Shown: piece by piece, positions 1-8,640 of the stretch
Layout of the letters: each line of letters opens with the position of its first letter
Numbering within the stretch: position 1 is the first letter of the stretch
Source of the DNA: an uncultured Desulfobacterium sp.
GTDB taxonomy: Bacteria; Desulfobacterota; Desulfobacteria; Desulfobacterales; Desulfobacteraceae
Length of the DNA stretch: 8,640 nucleotides
Direction: 5' to 3'
NCBI GenBank assembly: GCA_937124525.1
Contig: CAKZLA010000081.1
Coordinates: forward strand, 1 to 8,640
Made by a program: the position numbers and the translations under genes
Notes under the pieces: generated by a model
What the model was told of the DNA's origin: nothing
Seen by the model: only the letters and a program-made list of their open reading frames with translations
The model's database searches: none

Positions 1-157
1 CTTTCTGTTCAACATCCCCGAAAAACTTTAAGGTAAGGTGCATTGAAGATCTCCGGGTCCATGACGCTTTCACCCGGTTCTCCCGGATGTCTCCTTGGGT
101 ACTTGTGAGGAAAAGCCGGATGTTTTCGGGTATGGGAATGGCTATGAATGTTCGCAT
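1..157 (-). CDS. thpR: RNA 2',3'-cyclic phosphodiesterase (ThpR/LigT, 2H family), N-terminal part cut by window edge
   Basis: Translating the minus strand from the ATG at 157 gives 52 uninterrupted codons to the window edge, starting MRTFIAIPIPENIRLFL and containing MHLTLKFFGDV. This is the hallmark N-terminus of bacterial 2'-5' RNA ligase/cyclic phosphodiesterases of the 2H superfamily. The first catalytic H-x-T motif is visible (His40, Thr42); the second lies off the window, so only about the first quarter of the usual 180-200 residue protein is seen. Known role of the family: hydrolysis of RNA 2',3'-cyclic phosphates to 2'-phosphates, with weak reversible 2'-5' ligation. The start lies 7 nt past the RNA ligase stop, so it is the next gene of the same operon. 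A strong AGAGGTGAT lies inside the ligase 3' end but is about 16 nt from the ATG. An in-frame GTG at 178 is a less likely start because the family starts at MRxFIA. Confidence 0.85.
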   Translation of the reverse strand, partial: MRTFIAIPIPENIRLFLTSTQGDIRENRVKASWTRRSSMHLTLKFFGDVEQK

Positions 158-164
158 GGAAATC

Positions 165-851
165 TTATTGAAAATCACCTCTTAACTGGTTTGGTATGAT
201 ATCCTTGCGGGACCAATGGATTTCAATTGCCTGGACAAATTCTGGACGCACCAGTTTTGCCCTTGCCCCCAGCCATTTTCCGTGATCATACCGAAGGTAT
301 ATTCCTTCAGAAGGGGTAGTGCTGAAACGGGAAGTCCTAAAAAACGCTTTCAACCCATGAAGCGAAAAACTCCCTCTTCCCAACATGGGTGTCTGGGATA
401 TCTTCATCTGTCTAAATAAATCATTACGCACATCGCAGGATAAAAATTGCCTGCTTTCCTTATCATAAATATCAAATCCCAAAAACCAGGAGGGCAGGTT
501 TTCATATCTGACAGAGTGCCTTGCAAAGCACCATTCTCCGAATAAAATATATTGGTCCTGCAAAACATCAAAAAAACGATCCAGGTTTAAAAACAACCAC
601 TCATCTATTTTTTTCCACTGGCCTTGATAAGGTTTTAAAAGAAAAGATCCCCGGTTCTGAACATGAACTTCGCCGGAACTGTCAAAGGAGATGCCCACAT
701 TGGCCCCATCAATCTTTTCTTCCACTATTAATTCATGATCAAGGAATGCATCTCTTTCATGTTCTGTGAACACCTTATCATTCCGGACAGTTCCTTTCCC
801 GAGAACCGTCAGGTGTGGTGTGGTTGGGAATTTAAAAAAATCCAGGGTCAT
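165..851 (-). CDS. RNA ligase (covalent nucleotidyltransferase superfamily, Rnl2/DRB0094-like domain)
   Basis: A 228-residue protein. All core ligase motifs are visible: motif I EKIDGAN with the probable AMP-accepting Lys46, motif Ia QNRGS (65-69), motif III LFGEWCFARHSV (103-114), motif IV EGIYLR (182-187) and motif V RAKLVRPEF (197-205, Lys199). The N-terminal KFPTTPHL (7-14) is also typical of stand-alone bacterial RNA ligases. Members use ATP to join RNA 5'-phosphate and 3'-OH ends. There is no long C-terminal domain, so this is a minimal catalytic ligase. The frame is open further upstream to an ATG at 896, but the start at 851 is preferred: it overlaps the PIN-gene stop as ATGA (translational coupling) and places the conserved KFPxTPHL at the N-terminus. 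It sits between a putative RNase and a cyclic phosphodiesterase, which suggests sealing of the same cut RNA. The RNA substrate cannot be told from the sequence. Confidence 0.88.
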   Translation of the reverse strand: MTLDFFKFPTTPHLTVLGKGTVRNDKVFTEHERDAFLDHELIVEEKIDGANVGISFDSSGEVHVQNRGSFLLKPYQGQWKKIDEWLFLNLDRFFDVLQDQYILFGEWCFARHSVRYENLPSWFLGFDIYDKESRQFLSCDVRNDLFRQMKISQTPMLGRGSFSLHGLKAFFRTSRFSTTPSEGIYLRYDHGKWLGARAKLVRPEFVQAIEIHWSRKDIIPNQLRGDFQ

Positions 852-1384
852 TTTTCCATTTTTTCCTGATATTTTGCTTTGATATAATCCAGACATAGAA
901 AGTTTACTGAAATTCCGGATTCTTCAAGCCCCTTTTTCCATCCCCACCATTTGCTATCTGTGGATTGTAAAACAGACGGTTTATCAGGATGCGCGTTAGC
1001 CACCGCAACAAATTTTCTATCAGGTATATCAAATTCTGTAAGATCAGCATGGTCCGGAAATTCATCGTAGCTATTACCGTTCTTTGTAATGACCACTCGA
1101 TCAGTATCTGGAAATGTATATTGGTTATAATGTAACCATTTCAAAAACTTGTCACCAATTCCAGGTTGCCCACTCATGGAAAGCTGTTTGCGATATTCGT
1201 TAAAATTTTCCCCATTGGCATCCAAAACAAGCCCGCCGTTTTTCATAATATTTTCAATTGAATGGACACAGGCCTGAACACACAAAACGAGTTCATCTGG
1301 AATGGCTGCAGGATCAGTGGAAAGATTGGCATTCTTGGGGACATTGGTATCAACCACAAATTTACAGGACTTATGTTTACTCAT
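848..1384 (-). CDS. PIN-fold putative ribonuclease, partner of the upstream DUF3696 ATPase
   Basis: A 178-residue protein. It opens with a PIN-like first strand and acid, KFVVDTNV (Asp12). Further conserved-looking acids are Asp55/Glu63 in LDANGENFNEY, Asp122 in IPDRKFVAVA (the usual third PIN motif, D-x-K-F-V), and Asp143 in QSTDSKWWGW (the fourth motif). These four positions could bind the metal ions of a PIN nuclease, a family that usually cleaves RNA. It is longer than the 130-residue VapC toxins, and no VapB-like antitoxin is next to it. Its start overlaps the end of the ATPase gene by 8 bp (ATGAGTAA), and its stop overlaps the RNA ligase start, so the three products are probably made together. 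An AAGGTG ribosome site lies just before the ATG. Family assignment is by motif spacing only; nuclease activity and target are inferred. Confidence 0.72.
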   Translation of the reverse strand: MSKHKSCKFVVDTNVPKNANLSTDPAAIPDELVLCVQACVHSIENIMKNGGLVLDANGENFNEYRKQLSMSGQPGIGDKFLKWLHYNQYTFPDTDRVVITKNGNSYDEFPDHADLTEFDIPDRKFVAVANAHPDKPSVLQSTDSKWWGWKKGLEESGISVNFLCLDYIKAKYQEKMEK

Positions 1385-2783
1385 TCTCAGACACCTTTTC
1401 CTGCTCCATCTGACGAATCCTTTTATTCATTGCAGCCTTGGCATGGGCTGTGACATCTGCCATTTCATCCCCAAAAAAATTTTTCGGCCAATTTTGGATA
1501 TTACCAAAAAGATCTATTTCCAAGGGCTCTAATTTTGCCGGAGAGGAATCTACTTTTGCAAAATAGGCGGAAATATCCTCTTGGGAGACTTCCTCCTCTG
1601 CTATACGCCTTTGGAGTCGTTTTAAAAAATGTTCAGAATGTGTCTCAACAATCAATTGAATATTGCGATTCTGCCCATTTTCCTTTGAATTGATAACATC
1701 AATCATGACATCTGCCAAGGCGGATTGGGCACTGGGGTGCAAATGTATTTCCGGCTGCTCCATAATTATGATTGAGTTGGCAGGGGCATAGAAACATTGC
1801 ACTAATACCGGAAGTACCTGGGATATTCCAAACCCCACATCCGGAAGATCCACCCAGTCCTTAGAGCCCCTGGTCAATACGTTAACTTCATATTCCTGAC
1901 GTTGTTTAGAGATGCGTTTAACTTTGAATTCCTCTATCAGTCCCATGCTTTTCAAGCTTTTTGCAACAACCTCTTCCAGCGGCCTATTTACTTTTTTGTG
2001 CCCCAGACTGATCTTTCTACCCCGGGCGGCAAGCATTGCAGGCACTGTGTTTTCACCGGAATAGCCCACACTTTCAGGAGTGATGCCCGTCCATGAATAG
2101 AGCCTTTGGGTTTTTGTACGTAATGGACCCAAATAAAAAATTGATTTAAATAAATTTTCATGCTCAAGGTTAAGGCTTTGAACAAATTGGGCATTCTGGT
2201 GATACGCAATCACTTCATCAGGGAAACCATAAAACCTCACAGGTGATTCTGGATACCAAACCCTTCCTGGATTTTTTTTTAATGGATAATGGTTGGAATG
2301 GATTTCGTATTTCTTCCCTGCTGCTTTCTGTTCCATACCAATGGAAAGAATTTCTTCATTTTTATTTTTCAACTTATAATTAAAATATTCCATGGAAAGC
2401 ATCTCTCCATATTCCTTTTGCATGGCTATTTTGCCTTCAAAAGCAATGTTGGATGCAACGTATTTTTTTCCAGATAAGACATCCTTAATTTTTAATTCTT
2501 TGCCAACATCCCATTCATAATTAAAGCTTATTTTTTTTTCAGGGTCTCGATGAAAAATCATTTCCTGAAAAGAACCCAGCTGAACAGCTGAATTTTTATC
2601 TCCCGGATATAGGACTGCTTTTCTATCCGATGACTCAACCGTCTGTTTTAACATTATCAAAAACTGGCTGATACTGGATTTCCCCGAGCTATTGGTGCCA
2701 AAAAATAGTGTAATGGGTGCCATGCGGATACCAGCAGTATCTTTCCAGCCTTTGAAATTTTGTATTCTTAAATTTTGGAGCAT
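1377..2783 (-). CDS. SMC/OLD-like AAA ATPase with C-terminal DUF3696
   Basis: A 468-residue cytoplasmic ATPase. It begins with the typical LRIQNFKGWKDT strand, followed by Walker A GTNSSGKSS (29-37, Lys35). A middle region contains YLGPLRTKTQRLYSWTG (217-233) and VGYSGEN, both standard in this family. The signature-like DVGFGISQVLPVL is at 315-327, Walker B SIIIMEQPEIHLHP at 337-350, and the switch histidine in VETHSEHFLKRLQRR at 379-393. The last 70 residues (ISAYFAK, then LFGNIQNWPKNFFGDEM) match the DUF3696 tail. The length is normal and the gene appears intact. Ribosome site GAGGAGG lies at 2789-2795, 5 nt before the ATG. Such ABC-type ATPases act as sensors or switches for a nuclease partner in several anti-phage systems (for example AriA of PARIS, RloC, PrrC). 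Here the downstream PIN protein is the obvious partner, which is an inference from overlap and order. Confidence 0.87.
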   Translation of the reverse strand: MLQNLRIQNFKGWKDTAGIRMAPITLFFGTNSSGKSSISQFLIMLKQTVESSDRKAVLYPGDKNSAVQLGSFQEMIFHRDPEKKISFNYEWDVGKELKIKDVLSGKKYVASNIAFEGKIAMQKEYGEMLSMEYFNYKLKNKNEEILSIGMEQKAAGKKYEIHSNHYPLKKNPGRVWYPESPVRFYGFPDEVIAYHQNAQFVQSLNLEHENLFKSIFYLGPLRTKTQRLYSWTGITPESVGYSGENTVPAMLAARGRKISLGHKKVNRPLEEVVAKSLKSMGLIEEFKVKRISKQRQEYEVNVLTRGSKDWVDLPDVGFGISQVLPVLVQCFYAPANSIIIMEQPEIHLHPSAQSALADVMIDVINSKENGQNRNIQLIVETHSEHFLKRLQRRIAEEEVSQEDISAYFAKVDSSPAKLEPLEIDLFGNIQNWPKNFFGDEMADVTAHAKAAMNKRIRQMEQEKVSENE

Positions 2784-3085: not shown

Positions 3086-3262
3086 GCCTCCGAGGGCTGC
3101 CCTGACCGGAATATTGGAAACCAAAGGGAGTAGGATTTTTGCCCTTCCAGGCGTTAAGAAGCACAGATTGTTTGAGGAGCTTACCCGCCGTTTCTGTGCT
3201 CTAAACGGAAGGGCAAAAATACCCCCGACGTTTCCGTTCCGGTCAGGGCAGTCCTCGGAGGC
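3086..3262. repeat. Large GC-rich imperfect hairpin (MITE-like palindrome or structured RNA)
   Basis: Four nested stems can be read on one axis. The outer stem is 26 bp, pairing 3086-3111 with 3237-3262; its only non-Watson-Crick position is 3096/3252, a G.U wobble. The next are 6 bp (3116-3121 with 3230-3235), 14 bp perfect (3135-3148 with 3207-3220) and 8 bp perfect (3160-3167 with 3193-3200), closing on a loop of about 25 nt. Outside the outer stem, GCCGCC at 3074-3079 and GGCGG near 3261-3267 extend the symmetry. The element is GC-rich in AT-rich surroundings and sits where the MIT_C relic loses its 5' part, suggesting an inserted element. Open frames on both strands here are by-products of the symmetry. 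It could be a non-autonomous mobile palindrome or a transcribed structured RNA; no known family is recognised. Confidence 0.75.
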
Positions 3263-3439: not shown

Positions 3440-3491
3440 TTTGTTGTGGGCAGGCCAAATCCCCAATACGGTCTGCCCGTGGCAGTTATAA
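3440..3491 (+). repeat. Palindromic repeat unit L3, exact 52-bp inverted copy of 8580-8631
   Basis: Reading TTTGTTGTGGGCAGGCC to CAGTTATAA, the unit is identical base for base to the reverse complement of 8580-8631. Internally GGGCAGGCC pairs with GGTCTGCCC (8 of 9), and a small CTGCC-CGT-GGCAG hairpin follows. It lies about 200 bp before iorA. Confidence 0.85.
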
Positions 3492-3691
3492 GGAACACAA
3501 AAAAAGCTTGAAAAAAAACTCATTTGCTGTAGGTATCTCCAAAGAGAAACATTTCTCAGAAGAGGTGTACCATGACGAGAACATCGGTTTTGTTGAAACC
3601 ACATCAAGCCCCCATCTTCTGTTGAATATATTCGAGCTTGATCAACTACATATGAATTTCAAGCATTCTGATCTGACACAAGGAGACCTAC
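3492..3691. other. Leader region of the iorAB operon without a convincing gene
   Basis: About 200 bp between the repeat array and iorA. It holds a perfect GAGAAA-CA-TTTCTC palindrome (3544-3557) and A-rich runs around 3498-3519. No clear promoter could be picked. A 17-codon frame at 3572-3625 with a ribosome-site-like AGAGGTG has no distinguishing content and is not called as a gene. Confidence 0.4.
3681..3685 (+). promoter_or_regulatory. Ribosome binding site that decides the GTG start of iorA
   Basis: AGGAG lies 6 nt before the GTG at 3692. There is no in-frame ATG nearby that keeps the conserved N-terminus, so GTG is the start. Confidence 0.7.
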
Positions 3692-5521
3692 GTGACGCAA
3701 ACGGAGAATAACCAATTAATGCTGGGAAACCAGGCCCTGGCCAGGGGACTTGTGGAAAACGGCTGCCGCATGGCAACGGCCTACCCTGGCACCCCCTCAT
3801 CGGAAATACTCACCTCGGTGGCTGCATGGAAAAAGGAAGAATCCCTGGATAACATGCATGTGCAATGGGGAATCAATGAAAAAGTGGCCTTTGAAATCGC
3901 CTATGCCGGCAGCATTGCAGGCCTTCGATGCGCCGTTGCCATGAAACAGGTGGGACTTAATGTGGCTTCGGACCCCTTCATGAGTGCGGCCTATCTTGGC
4001 GTCAAGGGTGGCTTTCTCGTGATCAGTGCCGATGATCCCGGCCCCCATTCCTCCCAAACAGAACAGGATAGCCGCCTCTATGCCATGTCCGCCAAGGTGC
4101 CAGTGCTGGACCCGGATTCCCCGGAACAGGCCCGGCAAATGGCTAAACTTGGGTTTGAACTGTCCGAAGCATTTGAAATCCCCGTGATGATCCGTCCCAC
4201 CACCCGGGTGTGCCATGCAAGGCAGGATGTCTCCCTTTTGCCCATCACCCCCCGGGACAAAGCCGCTGAATTTGAGAAGAATCCGGGCAGATGGGCTGCC
4301 ACCCCTAAATTCAGGTATATGCTCCACAATCAACTGGAAGAAAAACTCAAAAAAATAGCAGCCTGGGAAGACACCGCCCCAATCTGTCTGAACCCATCTG
4401 TTCAATCGGACAAGGCCATTGTGGTGGCAGGCGTATCTGCGGCCCATGCCAAAGATATTATAAAGGAACTGAACCTGTGGGACACCGTGCGCCTGTACCA
4501 AGTGCTCCAGCCCTTTCCTTTGCACACCGCCTTTGTGGAAAAGGTGCTGGAAGATCATTCAGACATTCTTGTGCTGGAAGAGACCACCGGAGTCATTGAG
4601 ATGCAGCTTGCCCGACGGGATCGGGTCAAGGGTAAAAAATCAGGAGCCGTCCCGGAAACAGGAGAGTTACTGCCGGAAATAATGGAAGGCATCATTGCCA
4701 AGTTTCTCTCCGTTGAGCCCCAATCCGCCATCATGGAATCAAAACCCGGCAGACGTCCCACCCTGTGCGCGGGCTGCCCCCACCGGGCCAGCTTTTTTGC
4801 CATTAAACGGGCCGCCCCCAAGGGTATCTATACCAGCGACATCGGGTGTTATACCCTGGGCATGAATCTGGGTGCCGTGGATACGGTGCTGTGCATGGGC
4901 GCTGCCATCAGCCAGGCCGCTGGGTTTGCCCATGCCTATGCAGATGATAAACGTCCCCCCATTGTGGCCACCATGGGGGATTCCACTTTTTTTCACTCCG
5001 GGGTTCCCGCACTTATTGATGCCGTGGTTCAAAAAGCCCCGTTCCTCCTGGTAATCCTGGACAACCGCACCACTGCCATGACCGGCAATCAGCCCACCCC
5101 GGCCACGGGAAGAGGCATCATGGGAGAAGAAACAGTGTCCGTGGACATTGAAAAACTGGTGGCCGGATGCGGCATTGACTATTGCATCACCGCCGATCCC
5201 ATGGATTATCCCAATTTTCTGGATCATATGAAAGCAGCCGTGGCCCATTCCCGGGAGAACGGACCTGCGGTTTTGATTTCACGATCTCCCTGTGTGCTTT
5301 CCCTTTCAAAGGAGTCGCTAAAAGCCCAGTTCCAGAAAGTGGAAGTCAATGATCAATGTGATGGATGCGGATATTGCGTCTCCCATTTTGAATGTCCGGC
5401 CCTGGTGATGGATGATAAAGCAGAACTGGTCCACATTGATACGGCCCTTTGCACAGGCTGCGGTGTCTGCGTCAATGTCTGCCCCAAAAAATCCATTGAG
5501 ATCAAAACAAGAGAGGCGTAA
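3692..5521 (+). CDS. iorA: Indolepyruvate:ferredoxin oxidoreductase, alpha subunit
   Basis: A 609-residue cytoplasmic subunit, the normal length for IorA. Order: N-terminal pyruvate-oxidoreductase-type domain with AYPGTPSSEIL (30-40), GINEKVAFEIAYAGS (60-74) and AMKQVGLNVASDP (83-95); a middle transketolase-C-like domain (about 235-340); the thiamine-diphosphate domain with LCAGCPHRASF (358-368), SDIGCYTLG (382-390) and the metal/TPP motif GDSTFFHSGVPA to LDN (429-458); and a ferredoxin tail with Cys556/559/562/568 and Cys587/590/593/597 for two Fe-S clusters. With IorB it oxidatively decarboxylates arylpyruvates to aryl-acetyl-CoA and reduces ferredoxin, reversibly. It starts at GTG with a good AGGAG. 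It abuts iorB (TAA|ATG), as is usual for this pair. Which 2-oxoacid is preferred cannot be read from the sequence. Confidence 0.95.
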   Translation: MTQTENNQLMLGNQALARGLVENGCRMATAYPGTPSSEILTSVAAWKKEESLDNMHVQWGINEKVAFEIAYAGSIAGLRCAVAMKQVGLNVASDPFMSAAYLGVKGGFLVISADDPGPHSSQTEQDSRLYAMSAKVPVLDPDSPEQARQMAKLGFELSEAFEIPVMIRPTTRVCHARQDVSLLPITPRDKAAEFEKNPGRWAATPKFRYMLHNQLEEKLKKIAAWEDTAPICLNPSVQSDKAIVVAGVSAAHAKDIIKELNLWDTVRLYQVLQPFPLHTAFVEKVLEDHSDILVLEETTGVIEMQLARRDRVKGKKSGAVPETGELLPEIMEGIIAKFLSVEPQSAIMESKPGRRPTLCAGCPHRASFFAIKRAAPKGIYTSDIGCYTLGMNLGAVDTVLCMGAAISQAAGFAHAYADDKRPPIVATMGDSTFFHSGVPALIDAVVQKAPFLLVILDNRTTAMTGNQPTPATGRGIMGEETVSVDIEKLVAGCGIDYCITADPMDYPNFLDHMKAAVAHSRENGPAVLISRSPCVLSLSKESLKAQFQKVEVNDQCDGCGYCVSHFECPALVMDDKAELVHIDTALCTGCGVCVNVCPKKSIEIKTREA

Positions 5522-6046
5522 ATGAACCAGCAAATCGTTATCAGTGGTGTGGGGGGACAAGGGGTTCTGTTTATCACAGGCCTTCTGGCAAAGGCATGCA
5601 TGGCCAAAGGTGCCCATGTTCTTACATCGGAAACCCATGGCATGGCCCAACGGGGTGGCACCGTGATCTCCCATCTTAAAATCGGTGACTATGCAAGTCC
5701 CTTGATTCGACCGGGCAATGCAGATCTATTGGTTGTTCTGAAATCAGAAAACCTGGTCCAGCACCAGGAGTTTCTAAAACCCGGGGGCAAGGCCATTGTC
5801 AATGCACGGTCAGCGGCAGAGGCTTCAACATCCACAGTGATCACAATGAATGCAGACCAGTTGGCAAAAAATGAAAACAATCCGGGCTCTGTGAACCTCT
5901 ACATGCTCGGGGCTGCATTGGCCTTAACGTCGGTGTGCAGTCTTGATGATGTGAAGCAACAGGTTAAAAACCGCCTTCAAGGAAAACCCGAGGCCTTGGT
6001 TACAGGGGCTTTGAACGCCCTTGACCAAGGCTTTAACCAAATTTAA
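5522..6046 (+). CDS. iorB: Indolepyruvate:ferredoxin oxidoreductase, beta subunit
   Basis: A 174-residue gamma-type subunit of the 2-oxoacid:ferredoxin oxidoreductase superfamily, a little shorter than the usual 180-200. Seen: GVGGQGV (9-15), SETHGMAQRGGTV (36-48), a DLLVVLKSENL segment (68-78) and NLYMLGA (125-131), all standard for IorB. It has no cysteine clusters; electrons leave through the IorA ferredoxin tail. The ATG directly follows the iorA stop, with GAGAGG upstream inside the iorA end, so translation is probably coupled and subunits made in equal amounts. The gap to the next gene is only 26 bp. Confidence 0.94.
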   Translation: MNQQIVISGVGGQGVLFITGLLAKACMAKGAHVLTSETHGMAQRGGTVISHLKIGDYASPLIRPGNADLLVVLKSENLVQHQEFLKPGGKAIVNARSAAEASTSTVITMNADQLAKNENNPGSVNLYMLGAALALTSVCSLDDVKQQVKNRLQGKPEALVTGALNALDQGFNQI

Positions 6047-6072
6047 AGATATTTAAGGAAAAAGGTTGGGAA

Positions 6073-7368
6073 ATGGGATTTATACCCGATAATTTAACAG
6101 ACGAAAAAATTAAAGACCTTCAGCTTAAAGGACTGAAATGGACGCTGAATCACGCCCTGAAAAATTCATCCTTTTATCAGAATAAATATAAAGATACAGG
6201 CATCACCGCCAATGATATCACCCAATTGTCTGATCTTGAAATGCTTCCATTCATTGACAAGCACGATCTCCAGAACGACTATCCCCTGCCCCTGAAGTCC
6301 GTACCTGATGAGGATGTGGTCAGAATCCACGGCTCTTCCGGAACCACGGGCAAACGAAAGGTCATGTGCTATACCCAGAATGATATCAACACTTGGGCAA
6401 ATATGTTTGCCAGGTGCTACGAGATATCGGGCATGACCCGGAAAGACCGGGTACACATTGCCGTGGGCTATGGCCTGTGGACCGCTGGAGCGGGTTTCCA
6501 GACAGGCTGCGAACGTTTTGGTGCCATGGCCGTTCCTCTGGGGCCGGTGAATACAGATATGCATGTGGAAATGCTGGTGGATATGCAGTGCACGGTGTTT
6601 TGTTCCACCGCTTCCATGGCCCTTCTCATGGCCGAAGAGATCAAAAAAAGGGACCTGAGATCCAAGATTGCCCTGAAAAAAATCATCCTGGGAGCCGAGC
6701 GCCACAGCGATGCCATGCGTGCCCACATCAGTGAGCTTCTGGGGGTTGAAGAGATCTATGATATTTATGGCCTCACCGAACTTTATGGTCCGGGCACCGG
6801 TCTGGATTGCGCGTATCACCAGGGAATTCATTATTGGAATGATCTCTTTATTTATGAAATCATTGATCCCACCACCCTGAAGCCCTTGCCTCCGGGGGAA
6901 GAAGGCGAACTGGTGATCACCTCCCTTCAAAAGGAAGCAAGCCCTCTGATTCGCTACCGCACCCATGATATCACCCGGTTGATCCCGGGGAAATGTCCCT
7001 GTGGATGCGCCTTTCCCAGGCATGGCAGAATCAGGGGCAGAAGTGATGATATGTTCATTTACAGGGCCGTGAACATCTATCCCAGCCAGATTGATATAGT
7101 GCTAAGCAAGGTTGAAACCGTGGGCAGCGAATACCAAATTCACCTGCATCACCAGGAAAACGGCCGGGATCTCATGACGGTGAAGGTTGAAAGGGCCCAG
7201 GGTGTTTCTCCAGATCTTGATCTGGACATTGCCCGGGATATATCTGATAAAATTCGACGACGCCTCATGGTGCGGTCCGCCGTGGAAGTGGTGAATTATC
7301 ACACCCTGCCCAGAACCCAGAAAAAGAACCAGCGGGTTTTTGACAAGCGTAATGGCAATTCAAAATAA
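6073..7368 (+). CDS. Phenylacetate-CoA ligase family (PaaK-like) AMP-forming acyl-CoA ligase
   Basis: A 431-residue cytoplasmic adenylate-forming enzyme; the length fits the PaaK family (about 430). Seen in order: phosphate-loop motif HGSSGTTGKRK (86-96), IYGLTELYGPG (231-241), GELVITSL (278-285), YRTHDIT (295-301), the PaaK-type cysteine stretch CPCGC (308-312) before GRIRGRSDDMFIYR (318-331), the NIYP turn (334-337), and the C-terminal PRTQKKNQRV. It should activate a carboxylic acid with ATP and CoA, giving the acyl-CoA, AMP and PPi. Next to IorAB an arylacetate is the likely substrate: its CoA ester is exactly the product side of IorAB. Substrate is inferred from context; PaaK-like enzymes also act on other acids. 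The same family pairs with iorAB in various anaerobes. An AGG lies 7 nt before the ATG, with an AAGGAA slightly further upstream. Confidence 0.85.
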   Translation: MGFIPDNLTDEKIKDLQLKGLKWTLNHALKNSSFYQNKYKDTGITANDITQLSDLEMLPFIDKHDLQNDYPLPLKSVPDEDVVRIHGSSGTTGKRKVMCYTQNDINTWANMFARCYEISGMTRKDRVHIAVGYGLWTAGAGFQTGCERFGAMAVPLGPVNTDMHVEMLVDMQCTVFCSTASMALLMAEEIKKRDLRSKIALKKIILGAERHSDAMRAHISELLGVEEIYDIYGLTELYGPGTGLDCAYHQGIHYWNDLFIYEIIDPTTLKPLPPGEEGELVITSLQKEASPLIRYRTHDITRLIPGKCPCGCAFPRHGRIRGRSDDMFIYRAVNIYPSQIDIVLSKVETVGSEYQIHLHHQENGRDLMTVKVERAQGVSPDLDLDIARDISDKIRRRLMVRSAVEVVNYHTLPRTQKKNQRVFDKRNGNSK

Positions 7369-7370
7369 CC

Positions 7371-7415
7371 GCCACGGGCAGACCTGGCTTGTACCTGGGT
7401 TTGCCCACAACAAAT
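7371..7415 (-). repeat. Palindromic repeat copy R0 inside the operon
   Basis: GCCACGGGCAGACC at the start and GCCCACAACAAAT at the end match the R1/R2 units, while the middle differs. The arms (7376-7384 with 7397-7406) still pair. It begins two bases after the ligase stop and ends just before the AGGGAG ribosome site of the TRAP gene. As a transcribed hairpin it could affect mRNA decay or the expression ratio across the junction. Confidence 0.7.
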
Positions 7416-7421
7416 AGGGAG
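7416..7421 (+). promoter_or_regulatory. Ribosome binding site of the TRAP binding-protein gene
   Basis: AGGGAG lies 5 nt before the ATG at 7427 and directly abuts the repeat hairpin, so structure formation could influence its access. Confidence 0.6.
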
Positions 7422-7426
7422 AAAAT

Positions 7427-8437
7427 ATGAAACAAGTATTTGGTAGAACTATAACCGTATTATTTGCAATTTTCACCATTATTCCCATCATGCCCGGCAA
7501 TGCAGACGCCGGAAGCACCAAGTTAAATTATGCCAACTTTCCACCAGCCCCCACCTTTCCCTGCGTTCAAATGGAGCGCTGGAAAACCGAGGTGGAAAAA
7601 CGCACCGACGGTGCCGTAAAAATAAATACCTTCCCCGGAGGAACTCTCCTTGGAGCCAAAGGCATGATGGATGGCGTCATTGCAGGACAAGCTGACATCG
7701 GCTGTATCTGCATGGCCTACCAGCCCGGACGGTTTGTGGTCACCAATGGCGTAAGTCTGCCCCTGGGAATTCCCAATTCAGAAACCGGCAGCCTGGTGCT
7801 GTTTGACCTTTTTGAGAAATACAAACCCGCCGCCTTTGACAAGGTAAAGGTGCTCACCATGTTCACCACAGCCCCCACCAACATCATGAGCAAACAGCCC
7901 GTGCACACCCTGGAGGATATTAAAGGGATGGACTTAAGGGCCTCGGGCGGTGCCGCAGAAATTCTTAAAAGCTGGGGTGCCAACCAGATTGGCATGCCCA
8001 TGTCCGCCACACCGGAGGCCCTGCAAAAGGGGGTGGTCCAGGGCCTGTTCTCTTCCCTGGAGGTGATGAAGGATTTGAAGTTTGCCGAGGATTGCAAATA
8101 TGTAACCATGACCAACACCGTGGTCTATCCCTTTGCCGTTGTCATGAATAAAGCCAAATGGAATGCCCTGCCTGAAGATGTTAAAAAAGTCATGGATGAC
8201 CTTGCCCGGGAACAGGCTAAATGGACCGGTACCTACATGGACGGTCATGTGGACAATGCAGTTGCCTGGTCCAAGGAGACCCATCAGGTGGAGTTCATCA
8301 CCCTTGATGAAAAAACCACCGAAGAATGGAACACCCCCCTGGCACCCATCACAGAAAAATGGATCACCAAGGCCACTTCCAAGGGATTCCCGGGAAAAAC
8401 CATTGTGGATGATATTTCAGCTTTGATTGCCCGATAA
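7427..8437 (+). CDS. TRAP transporter periplasmic solute-binding protein, DctP/TAXI-type fold
   Basis: A 336-residue exported protein. The N-terminus has a basic start (MKQVFGR), a hydrophobic core (TVLFAIFTIIPIM) and a likely signal-peptidase I site near NADA-GS (about residue 28). The mature protein has DctP-type features: FPGGTLLGAKGMMDGVIAGQADIG (69-92), the LEDIKGMDLRASGG segment with Arg171 in the position that binds the ligand carboxylate in this family, GMPMSATPEALQKGVVQGLFSS (189-210), and the PFAVVMNKAKWNALPEDVKK stretch. TRAP transporters take up organic acids using the ion gradient; the DctQ/DctM membrane subunits are not in the window and could follow downstream. The position after a CoA ligase suggests it feeds that enzyme its acid. 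The ligand itself is unknown. Confidence 0.88.
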   Translation: MKQVFGRTITVLFAIFTIIPIMPGNADAGSTKLNYANFPPAPTFPCVQMERWKTEVEKRTDGAVKINTFPGGTLLGAKGMMDGVIAGQADIGCICMAYQPGRFVVTNGVSLPLGIPNSETGSLVLFDLFEKYKPAAFDKVKVLTMFTTAPTNIMSKQPVHTLEDIKGMDLRASGGAAEILKSWGANQIGMPMSATPEALQKGVVQGLFSSLEVMKDLKFAEDCKYVTMTNTVVYPFAVVMNKAKWNALPEDVKKVMDDLAREQAKWTGTYMDGHVDNAVAWSKETHQVEFITLDEKTTEEWNTPLAPITEKWITKATSKGFPGKTIVDDISALIAR

Positions 8438-8481: not shown

Positions 8482-8486
8482 CCTTA

Positions 8487-8547
8487 TTATAACTGCCACG
8501 GGCAGACCGTATTGGGGATCTGACCTACCCACAATAAATATCGAAAC
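8487..8547 (-). repeat. Palindromic repeat unit R1
   Basis: It runs TTATAACTGCCACGGGCAG to ATATCGAAAC and matches R2 over 61 bp with four differences, at an offset of exactly 93 bp. Orientation is opposite to the L units. Confidence 0.8.
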
Positions 8548-8579
8548 TCCAGTTATTACAAATCATCGGACGGAGTTTC
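8543..8579. repeat. Spacer hairpin between R1 and R2
   Basis: GAAACTCC (8543-8550) pairs perfectly with GGAGTTTC (8572-8579). The 10-mer GACGGAGTTT at 8569-8578 recurs inverted at 3327-3336 in the left array, showing the spacers of both arrays share ancestry. Confidence 0.65.
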
Positions 8580-8640
8580 TTATAACTGCCACGGGCAGAC
8601 CGTATTGGGGATTTGGCCTGCCCACAACAAATATCGAAAC
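8580..8640 (-). repeat. Palindromic repeat unit R2, running to the window edge
   Basis: Bases 8580-8631 are the exact reverse complement of 3440-3491. The last bases ATATCGAAAC repeat the start of the R1-R2 spacer hairpin, so the array very probably continues to the right of the window. Confidence 0.85.

Follow-up and report, generated by a model that had tools for sequence, protein, structure and literature searches.

Pairs of an OLD-family ABC ATPase and a PIN RNase have been described within BREX loci and proposed as backup suicidal effectors (Rakesh and Krishnan 2026, PMC12839542), and PADLOC carries an ATPase-PIN pair as the candidate system HEC-03. In PARIS, a system first recognized in a defence hotspot of P4 (PMC12707154), an ABC ATPase gates the TOPRIM RNase AriB, which leaves 3'-OH/5'-P ends (PMC12409363). 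Here, we analyzed a stretch of 8,640 nucleotides from an uncultured Desulfobacterium sp. (contig CAKZLA010000081.1; the window), in which an ATPase-PIN pair is followed by an RNA ligase gene. We found that these three genes, ATPase-PIN-ligase (the triad), are a conserved unit that recurs in other genomes. The original prediction, made from the letters of the window, had proposed a four-gene RNA cut-and-repair or anti-phage operon for which no named system was known. This does not apply to the ATPase-PIN pair, which is already known as a candidate system and BREX accessory (PMC12839542). It does apply to the ligase as a third member: neither the ligase as a regular third gene, nor a PIN-ligase fusion, nor the P4-slot context was found in the main texts of the literature searched. 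The predicted gene cluster on the minus strand was confirmed and consists of the following features:

1377..2783, minus strand: DUF3696/OLD-like ABC ATPase (HEC-03B), 468 aa; predicted sensor and gate
848..1384, minus strand: PIN-fold protein (HEC-03A), 178 aa; predicted RNA-cutting effector
165..851, minus strand: RNA ligase (PF09414), 228 aa; predicted sealer of 3'-OH/5'-P breaks
1..157, minus strand: LigT/2H-type phosphoesterase gene, first 52 codons, truncated by the window edge (PF02834, 5.3e-6)

The gene junctions are as claimed, with an 8-bp overlap between ATPase and PIN, an ATGA overlap between PIN and ligase, and a 7-nt gap between ligase and 2H gene. The ligase start was set at 851 because most relatives are about 229 aa long.

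The ATPase matches Pfam PF13175/PF12476 and contains GTNSSGKSS, IIIMEQPEIHLHP and VETHSEH, which we take to be its Walker A, Walker B and H-loop motifs, respectively. It matches the PADLOC model HEC-03B over residues 1-459 of 468 (8.1e-132, against 1.1e-30 for AriA), and the product of the gene directly downstream, the PIN protein, matches HEC-03A (1.1e-26). Conservation was assessed in 105 loci; 14 ligase-centred loci that duplicated PIN-centred loci, and rows whose PIN was identical, had been left out of this set. The Walker A lysine is present in 94 of the 105 (11 gaps) and the H-loop histidine in 103 (one gap, one glycine). For the 178-aa protein, a PIN fold with acidic active-site residues was predicted, in agreement with the original assignment. 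The fold call rests on VIA re-alignment, since Foldseek gave no match at E 0.001 (best E 0.45); the top five rows were all PIN proteins. The predicted active-site residues D12, E63, D122 and D143 are kept in 104, 104, 105 and 102 of the 105 loci, respectively. A PDB sequence search with the PIN profile returned nothing meaningful, and Pfam gave no TOPRIM match among the three triad proteins.

ATP-dependent RNA ligases join 3'-OH and 5'-P ends. The ligase of the window corresponds approximately to the adenylyltransferase domain only, with the motifs KxDG (K46), RG, FGEW, EGIYLR and AKLV. Among relatives, KxDG, RG, FGEW, EGIYLR and KLV are near-invariant, and the catalytic lysine is present in 88 of 89 loci (one gap). 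A check for a C-terminal Rnl2 domain in the 228-aa protein gave a pLDDT of about 70 for the last blocks and 19 bits for RNA_lig_RNL2, against an equivalog cut-off of 197. An assignment to the HARP-Rnl3 type was rejected (TIGR01209, 27 bits against a cut-off of 137). No PADLOC family matched the ligase, and no kinase or phosphatase end-healing family (Pnkp/Rnl/Hen1 type) was found by Pfam among the three triad proteins. One relative (P0153) carries an extra domain, PF21247, in a C-terminal extension, and in the stretches examined of genomes G677 and G678, only ligase fragments were detected, with neither PIN nor ATPase. A distant relative of the ligase was found in each of 155 phage records (identity 23-30% in the 20 of 155 rows shown); 130 of these records are Staphylococcus phages, and several are phages larger than 300 kb. 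Possibly, these are counter-defence enzymes able to reseal such cuts.

Among the described systems, HEC-03 has both of its models matched by the ATPase and PIN of the window, in the same order; the ligase is the difference. With the BREX modules, the triad shares the pairing of an OLD-family ABC ATPase with a PIN RNase (PMC12839542). In the main text of that paper, supplements aside, the word ligase occurs 0 times, and fewer than two BREX genes were found in 56 of the 82 loci collected by PIN similarity, some of which are on short contigs. As in PARIS, an ABC ATPase would gate an RNase, and three triad loci occupy the P4-satellite slot; the triad, however, has a PIN protein by fold instead of AriB, plus a ligase that should seal the ends that AriB leaves. 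PrrC and RloC also place an RNase under the control of an ABC ATPase, and PrrC lies within a type I restriction-modification (R-M) locus (PMC12707154), as the triad does in L025. Unlike in the anticodon nucleases PrrC/RloC, where ATPase and nuclease share one polypeptide, ATPase and PIN are separate proteins in the triad, and no PrrC/RloC-type family was found among the Pfam, NCBIfam and PADLOC matches (the latter in the rows shown). Moreover, the repair enzymes that act on PrrC cuts are described as encoded by phage T4 (PMC12409363), whereas the triad ligase is in the same operon. HARP with Rnl3 likewise links a PIN-superfamily RNase to an RNA ligase, but the ligase family is another one, no ATPase is mentioned in the parts consulted, the orientation is usually divergent, and processing of tRNA and small RNA has been proposed (PMC12153264).

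Recurrence and coupling of the three genes

To collect loci, genome contigs were searched with a PIN-family alignment, which yielded 323 relatives; we retained the best 80 of these and added two from viral contigs (82 loci). The ATPase lies directly upstream of PIN in all 82 loci and the ligase directly downstream in 74. Overlaps of 4 bp were found between ATPase and PIN in 55/80 loci and between PIN and ligase in 37/74, counts that are low because the most upstream start was used. Since the loci had been selected by PIN, evenly drawn genomes were also searched with a ligase profile. A threshold of 200 bits was applied and the seed genomes G002 and G008 were excluded; as the search scored just part of its initial candidates, the counts are lower bounds. 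Ten of 348 Pseudomonadota genomes had a ligase above the threshold, in all ten with an adjacent PIN gene (PIN in 13/348; Fisher p 5e-17); one of the ten, in G479, has one TAG inside the matched stretch. The same applied to Desulfobacterota, where the ligase was found in 3 of 296 genomes, each time with PIN and ATPase adjacent. Ligases below 200 bits (6/17 in Pseudomonadota: G386, G500, G526, G638, G307 and G311; 2/6 in Desulfobacterota: G059 and G178) had no adjacent PIN. The PIN gene of G153 was detected only with profile A1. Hence, the predicted module of ABC ATPase, PIN and RNA ligase was borne out, and the suggested gene-neighbourhood search found the ligase associated with ATPase-PIN elsewhere.

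In these samples, six of seven PIN proteins without a ligase scored 127-251 bits with HEC-03A (25 for G381), and ligase-bearing PIN proteins 24-113 bits. These low scores indicate that the ligase-bearing set is largely outside the core of the HEC-03A model. The titles of the fetched loci, mostly metagenome-assembled, include Pseudomonadota, Desulfobacterota, Chlorobi, Planctomycetes, Spirochaetes and an archaeon, Methanolobus. Within the family of genome G001, the ligase is patchy, occurring in 4 of 86 genomes, two of them already among the loci reached otherwise; no ligase as close as the closest relatives, P0121-P0124, was found in these 86. PIN relatives were present in 12 plasmid records, and four of the five regions viewed (Azotobacter, Tistrella, Aeromonas and Rhodococcus) show ATPase, PIN and an "RNA ligase family protein"; in the Acinetobacter region, an HNH gene stands where the ligase would be. 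In E. coli genomes, triad DNA of L082 gave no match and that of L081 three short ATPase matches. Phage records contained no PIN relative and no match to the L082 triad DNA.

The fourth gene of the original prediction, the 2H phosphodiesterase, did not prove to be a member of the module. The triad genes have a GC content of 0.39-0.42 (third codon positions, GC3, 0.34-0.42), which is below that of the metabolic genes to the right (0.50-0.54; GC3 0.52-0.60), a pattern expected of acquired DNA; the 2H start (GC 0.48) is nearer to these host genes. Its 52 residues, a short and weak query, gave 0 phmmer matches in the 82 loci. In the 56 loci with fewer than two BREX genes, flanking genes were chosen by a simple open-reading-frame heuristic, and 89/92 downstream and 76/92 upstream genes were scanned. 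No 2H family matched two or more of the 89 downstream genes in the first 25 of 71 families, a result that still allows a single 2H match. A four-gene system including 2H was therefore rejected as the conserved unit. In at least one sister species, a 2H start does come after the ligase: the ligase P0124 runs past its usual end as CDFHENIHSHSHTG, an out-of-frame reading of the 2H start (window frame DFHANIHSHSHTR). We take 2H as a host gene at the insertion point of the triad.

Pairwise protein distances of the three triad members are correlated over 84 loci (r 0.82-0.87) and also within 18 BREX loci (r 0.61-0.65). In the latter, correlations of the triad are -0.12 to -0.22 with PglXI and 0.18-0.45 with PglZ. 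Since the triad proteins co-vary with each other, not with PglXI and only partly with PglZ, the triad behaves as a cassette moving between BREX loci.

In a tree of ATPase plus PIN, the ligase is absent in 16 of 105 rows, with ATPase-PIN retained. These rows form one clade of six and ten scattered cases, and the ligase is present on either side of the midpoint root. Eleven changes are needed, seven of them forced by starred branches. The tree was built by a quick method, is unrooted and has long branches flagged, so that gain is not formally separable from loss. We read this pattern as repeated loss of a ligase that is probably an old triad member. Scattered absence with ATPase-PIN kept is expected of an auxiliary function. 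A ligase that is dispensable and yet, in our samples, found intact only next to its RNase is consistent with an auxiliary acting on the RNase product by leak resealing or reset. In three loci (L003, L061 and L066), the ATPase frame is split in two, the PIN frame is intact, and the ligase is broken (L003, L066) or absent (L061). This would fit a PIN protein that is harmless without its ATPase, although a sequencing error is possible.

A joined PIN+ligase query gave 2766 matches, of which 120 were listed. Among 318 proteins examined, natural PIN-ligase fusions were rare: three were found. In the best represented, P0242 (401 aa, 7 member sequences, 9 contigs), both the PIN and the ligase domain are complete, and every motif sought is present.

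Genomic surroundings of the triad

The original prediction of an anti-phage setting was confirmed for relatives of the triad, which were found between BREX genes, in the P4 integrase-psu slot, on plasmids and next to type I R-M genes. PADLOC labels the genes surrounding the triad in L051 as BrxC, PglXI, [triad], BrxH, PglZ and BrxA. Judged by similarity to the L051 genes, at least two BREX genes are present in 26 of 82 loci, and in 23 of 82 the triad is flanked by BREX genes on either side. We label these loci "type 3-like", because the best helicase model in L051 is BrxHI and type 3 is described with BrxHII. In four BREX loci (L008, L010, L021 and L050), the BrxH helicase was not detected between ligase and PglZ, and the triad almost abuts PglZ. 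The BREX interval upstream of the triad looks like a variable effector slot: in L011 (5291-8252), it is occupied by another DUF3696 ATPase, of 634 aa, together with an unknown protein of 363 aa, and in L048 by a Schlafen-like gene.

The order phage integrase, triad, psu, which is the P4-satellite arrangement, was found in 3 of 82 loci: Pantoea L073 and the viral contigs L081 and L082. In L073, the integrase is in two frames and psu was recognized by PHROG alone. In L025, the triad comes after hsdM-hsdS, and in L063 after hsdR. TOTE primase-helicases account for 4 of the 89 downstream genes scanned; in L030, one directly follows PIN, and the ligase is absent. Transfer RNA (tRNA) and transfer-messenger RNA (tmRNA) genes are usual integration sites. 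In three loci (L005:8030-8105, L030:7320-7671 and L073:6837-7200), a tRNA-Phe or tmRNA gene lies upstream of the ATPase, at a distance of up to about 1.5 kb. No pattern indicating a decoy or target tRNA beside the triad was seen; tRNA or tmRNA genes were found in 6 of the 43 loci scanned.

Proposed mechanism and alternative explanations

The original interpretation thus holds for the three-gene module, its conservation and the defence context of its relatives, and not for the membership of 2H. We consider it somewhat more probable than otherwise that the triad is a mobile anti-phage cassette, in which the ATPase gates a PIN RNase and the cut is resealed by the cassette's own ligase. We infer the trigger, the RNA target, the end chemistry and the direction of the ligase reaction, and likewise the resealing (self-rescue) step. 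The ABC ATPase would respond to infection, the plausible cue being either a phage anti-restriction protein or the inhibition of a partner restriction or BREX system. The nearest parallels in logic are PARIS and PrrC, where the ABC ATPase or the partner system is described to monitor anti-restriction and to fire the RNase (PMC12707154, PMC12839542). The triad ATPase would then release or activate the PIN protein, which would cut an essential RNA, probably a tRNA, through a metal-ion mechanism yielding 3'-OH and 5'-phosphate ends. Such products, 5'-P/3'-OH, are reported for protein-only RNase P, a PIN relative (PMC10652100). The ligase could reseal the product of its own RNase with no end-healing enzyme required, mopping up leaky cleavage in healthy cells and letting survivors recover. 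Joining of 3'-OH/5'-P ends by ATP-dependent ligases would explain a triad without kinase, phosphatase or 2H enzyme.

Several points weigh against this proposal. All activities of the triad are predicted, and within the window no defence genes other than the triad were seen in Pfam and NCBIfam scans; BREX core genes, too, were not found around the triad there. The 82 loci were picked by PIN similarity, and beyond the close relatives it is common for a PIN gene to have no ligase next to it (3/13 Pseudomonadota genomes: G320, G500 and G381; 4/7 Desulfobacterota genomes: G130, G148, G209 and G302). The repeated absence of the ligase is odd for a needed antidote, unless the ATPase holds PIN silent. 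With regard to mobility, ligase-PglZ distances correlate with r 0.45 and PglZ-PglXI with r just 0.41, so that the low correlation of the triad with PglXI partly reflects PglXI's own variability. Two of the fusions (P0241 and P0290) have one member on one contig each and, since PIN and ligase genes overlap, may be frameshift artefacts; P0241 is without the N-terminal part of the PIN domain. Finally, it is disputed which ends PIN toxins leave: VapC products are said to carry 5'-OH (PMC6459853), and the triad ligase could not seal such ends alone.

Our further proposal is more tentative and has slightly less than even chances: a resettable abortive infection, in which immunity is a reversible RNA nick and the operon encodes, and in some lineages fuses, the ligase for its own cut. 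Defence RNases are usually viewed as one-way effectors, with repair coming from the phage or from separate host systems. If the proposal is true, 3'-OH/5'-P ends left by PIN would permit a one-enzyme reset, which a PrrC-type cut does not. A mobile and widespread cassette that combines the RNA cut with a ligase of matching chemistry would open reversible immunity to direct testing, and it may account for the ability of cells to live with leaky RNase effectors. The ligase, which has no PADLOC model, also adds a component to HEC-03 and to the BREX backup modules.

Among the alternatives, the ligase might repair host RNAs cut by an invader or another ribotoxin, PIN and ligase being independent defence functions that travel together. 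Many ribotoxins leave 2',3'-cyclic-P/5'-OH ends, and the triad has no kinase/phosphatase to heal them. Rtc (PMC7790460) and Pnkp1-Rnl-Hen1 (PMC4411300) are known RNA repair systems whose operons contain no cognate RNase, and the ligase is dispensable to ATPase-PIN, as its absence from 16/105 rows indicates. However, in the even samples every intact strong ligase (10/10 and 3/3) stands beside PIN, and PIN-ligase fusions exist, so we judge this explanation unlikely. Rather improbable, in our view, is that the ligase is part of the effector, such that the cut RNA is misjoined, circularized or 5'-adenylated beyond restoration by phage repair enzymes. A PIN-ligase fusion would suit a cut-and-join enzyme, and archaeal Rnl3 is cited as having strong adenylation and weak ligation activity (PMC12153264). 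An essential effector part should not, however, be missing at scattered places while ATPase-PIN persists.

We consider it highly improbable that PIN nuclease and ligase target invader DNA or RNA-DNA hybrids instead of cellular RNA, even though some PIN/FEN-like nucleases act on DNA and several neighbours of the triad (BREX, R-M) are DNA-targeting systems. A housekeeping operon of four genes for RNA processing or tRNA maturation, to which the position of the 2H start behind the ligase, seen in the window and likewise in at least one sister species (P0124 tail), would point, is barely credible and already disfavoured, given the patchy distribution in the family of G001, the low GC content of the triad, the mobile and defence contexts and the lack of recurrence of 2H.

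Other features of the window

To the right of the triad, an intergenic segment (3086-3262) contains a 26-nt inverted repeat with arms that are 96% complementary and 125 nt apart; Rfam gave 0 matches in the window at the gathering threshold. The plus strand at 3692-8437 encodes IorA, IorB, a PaaK-like CoA ligase and a TRAP DctP protein, which probably serve the fermentation and uptake of aryl acids/amino acids. Four positions (3440-3496, 7360-7423, 8484-8547 and 8577-8640) carry a repeat of about 57-64 nt, the core of which is TGCCACGGGCAGACCGTATTGGGGAT...CTGCCCACAACAAA. Relative to the indolepyruvate oxidoreductase and CoA ligase genes, one inverted copy lies before them, and one degenerate (63%) and two close copies lie after them. 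The inverted copy is 98% complementary to the last copy.

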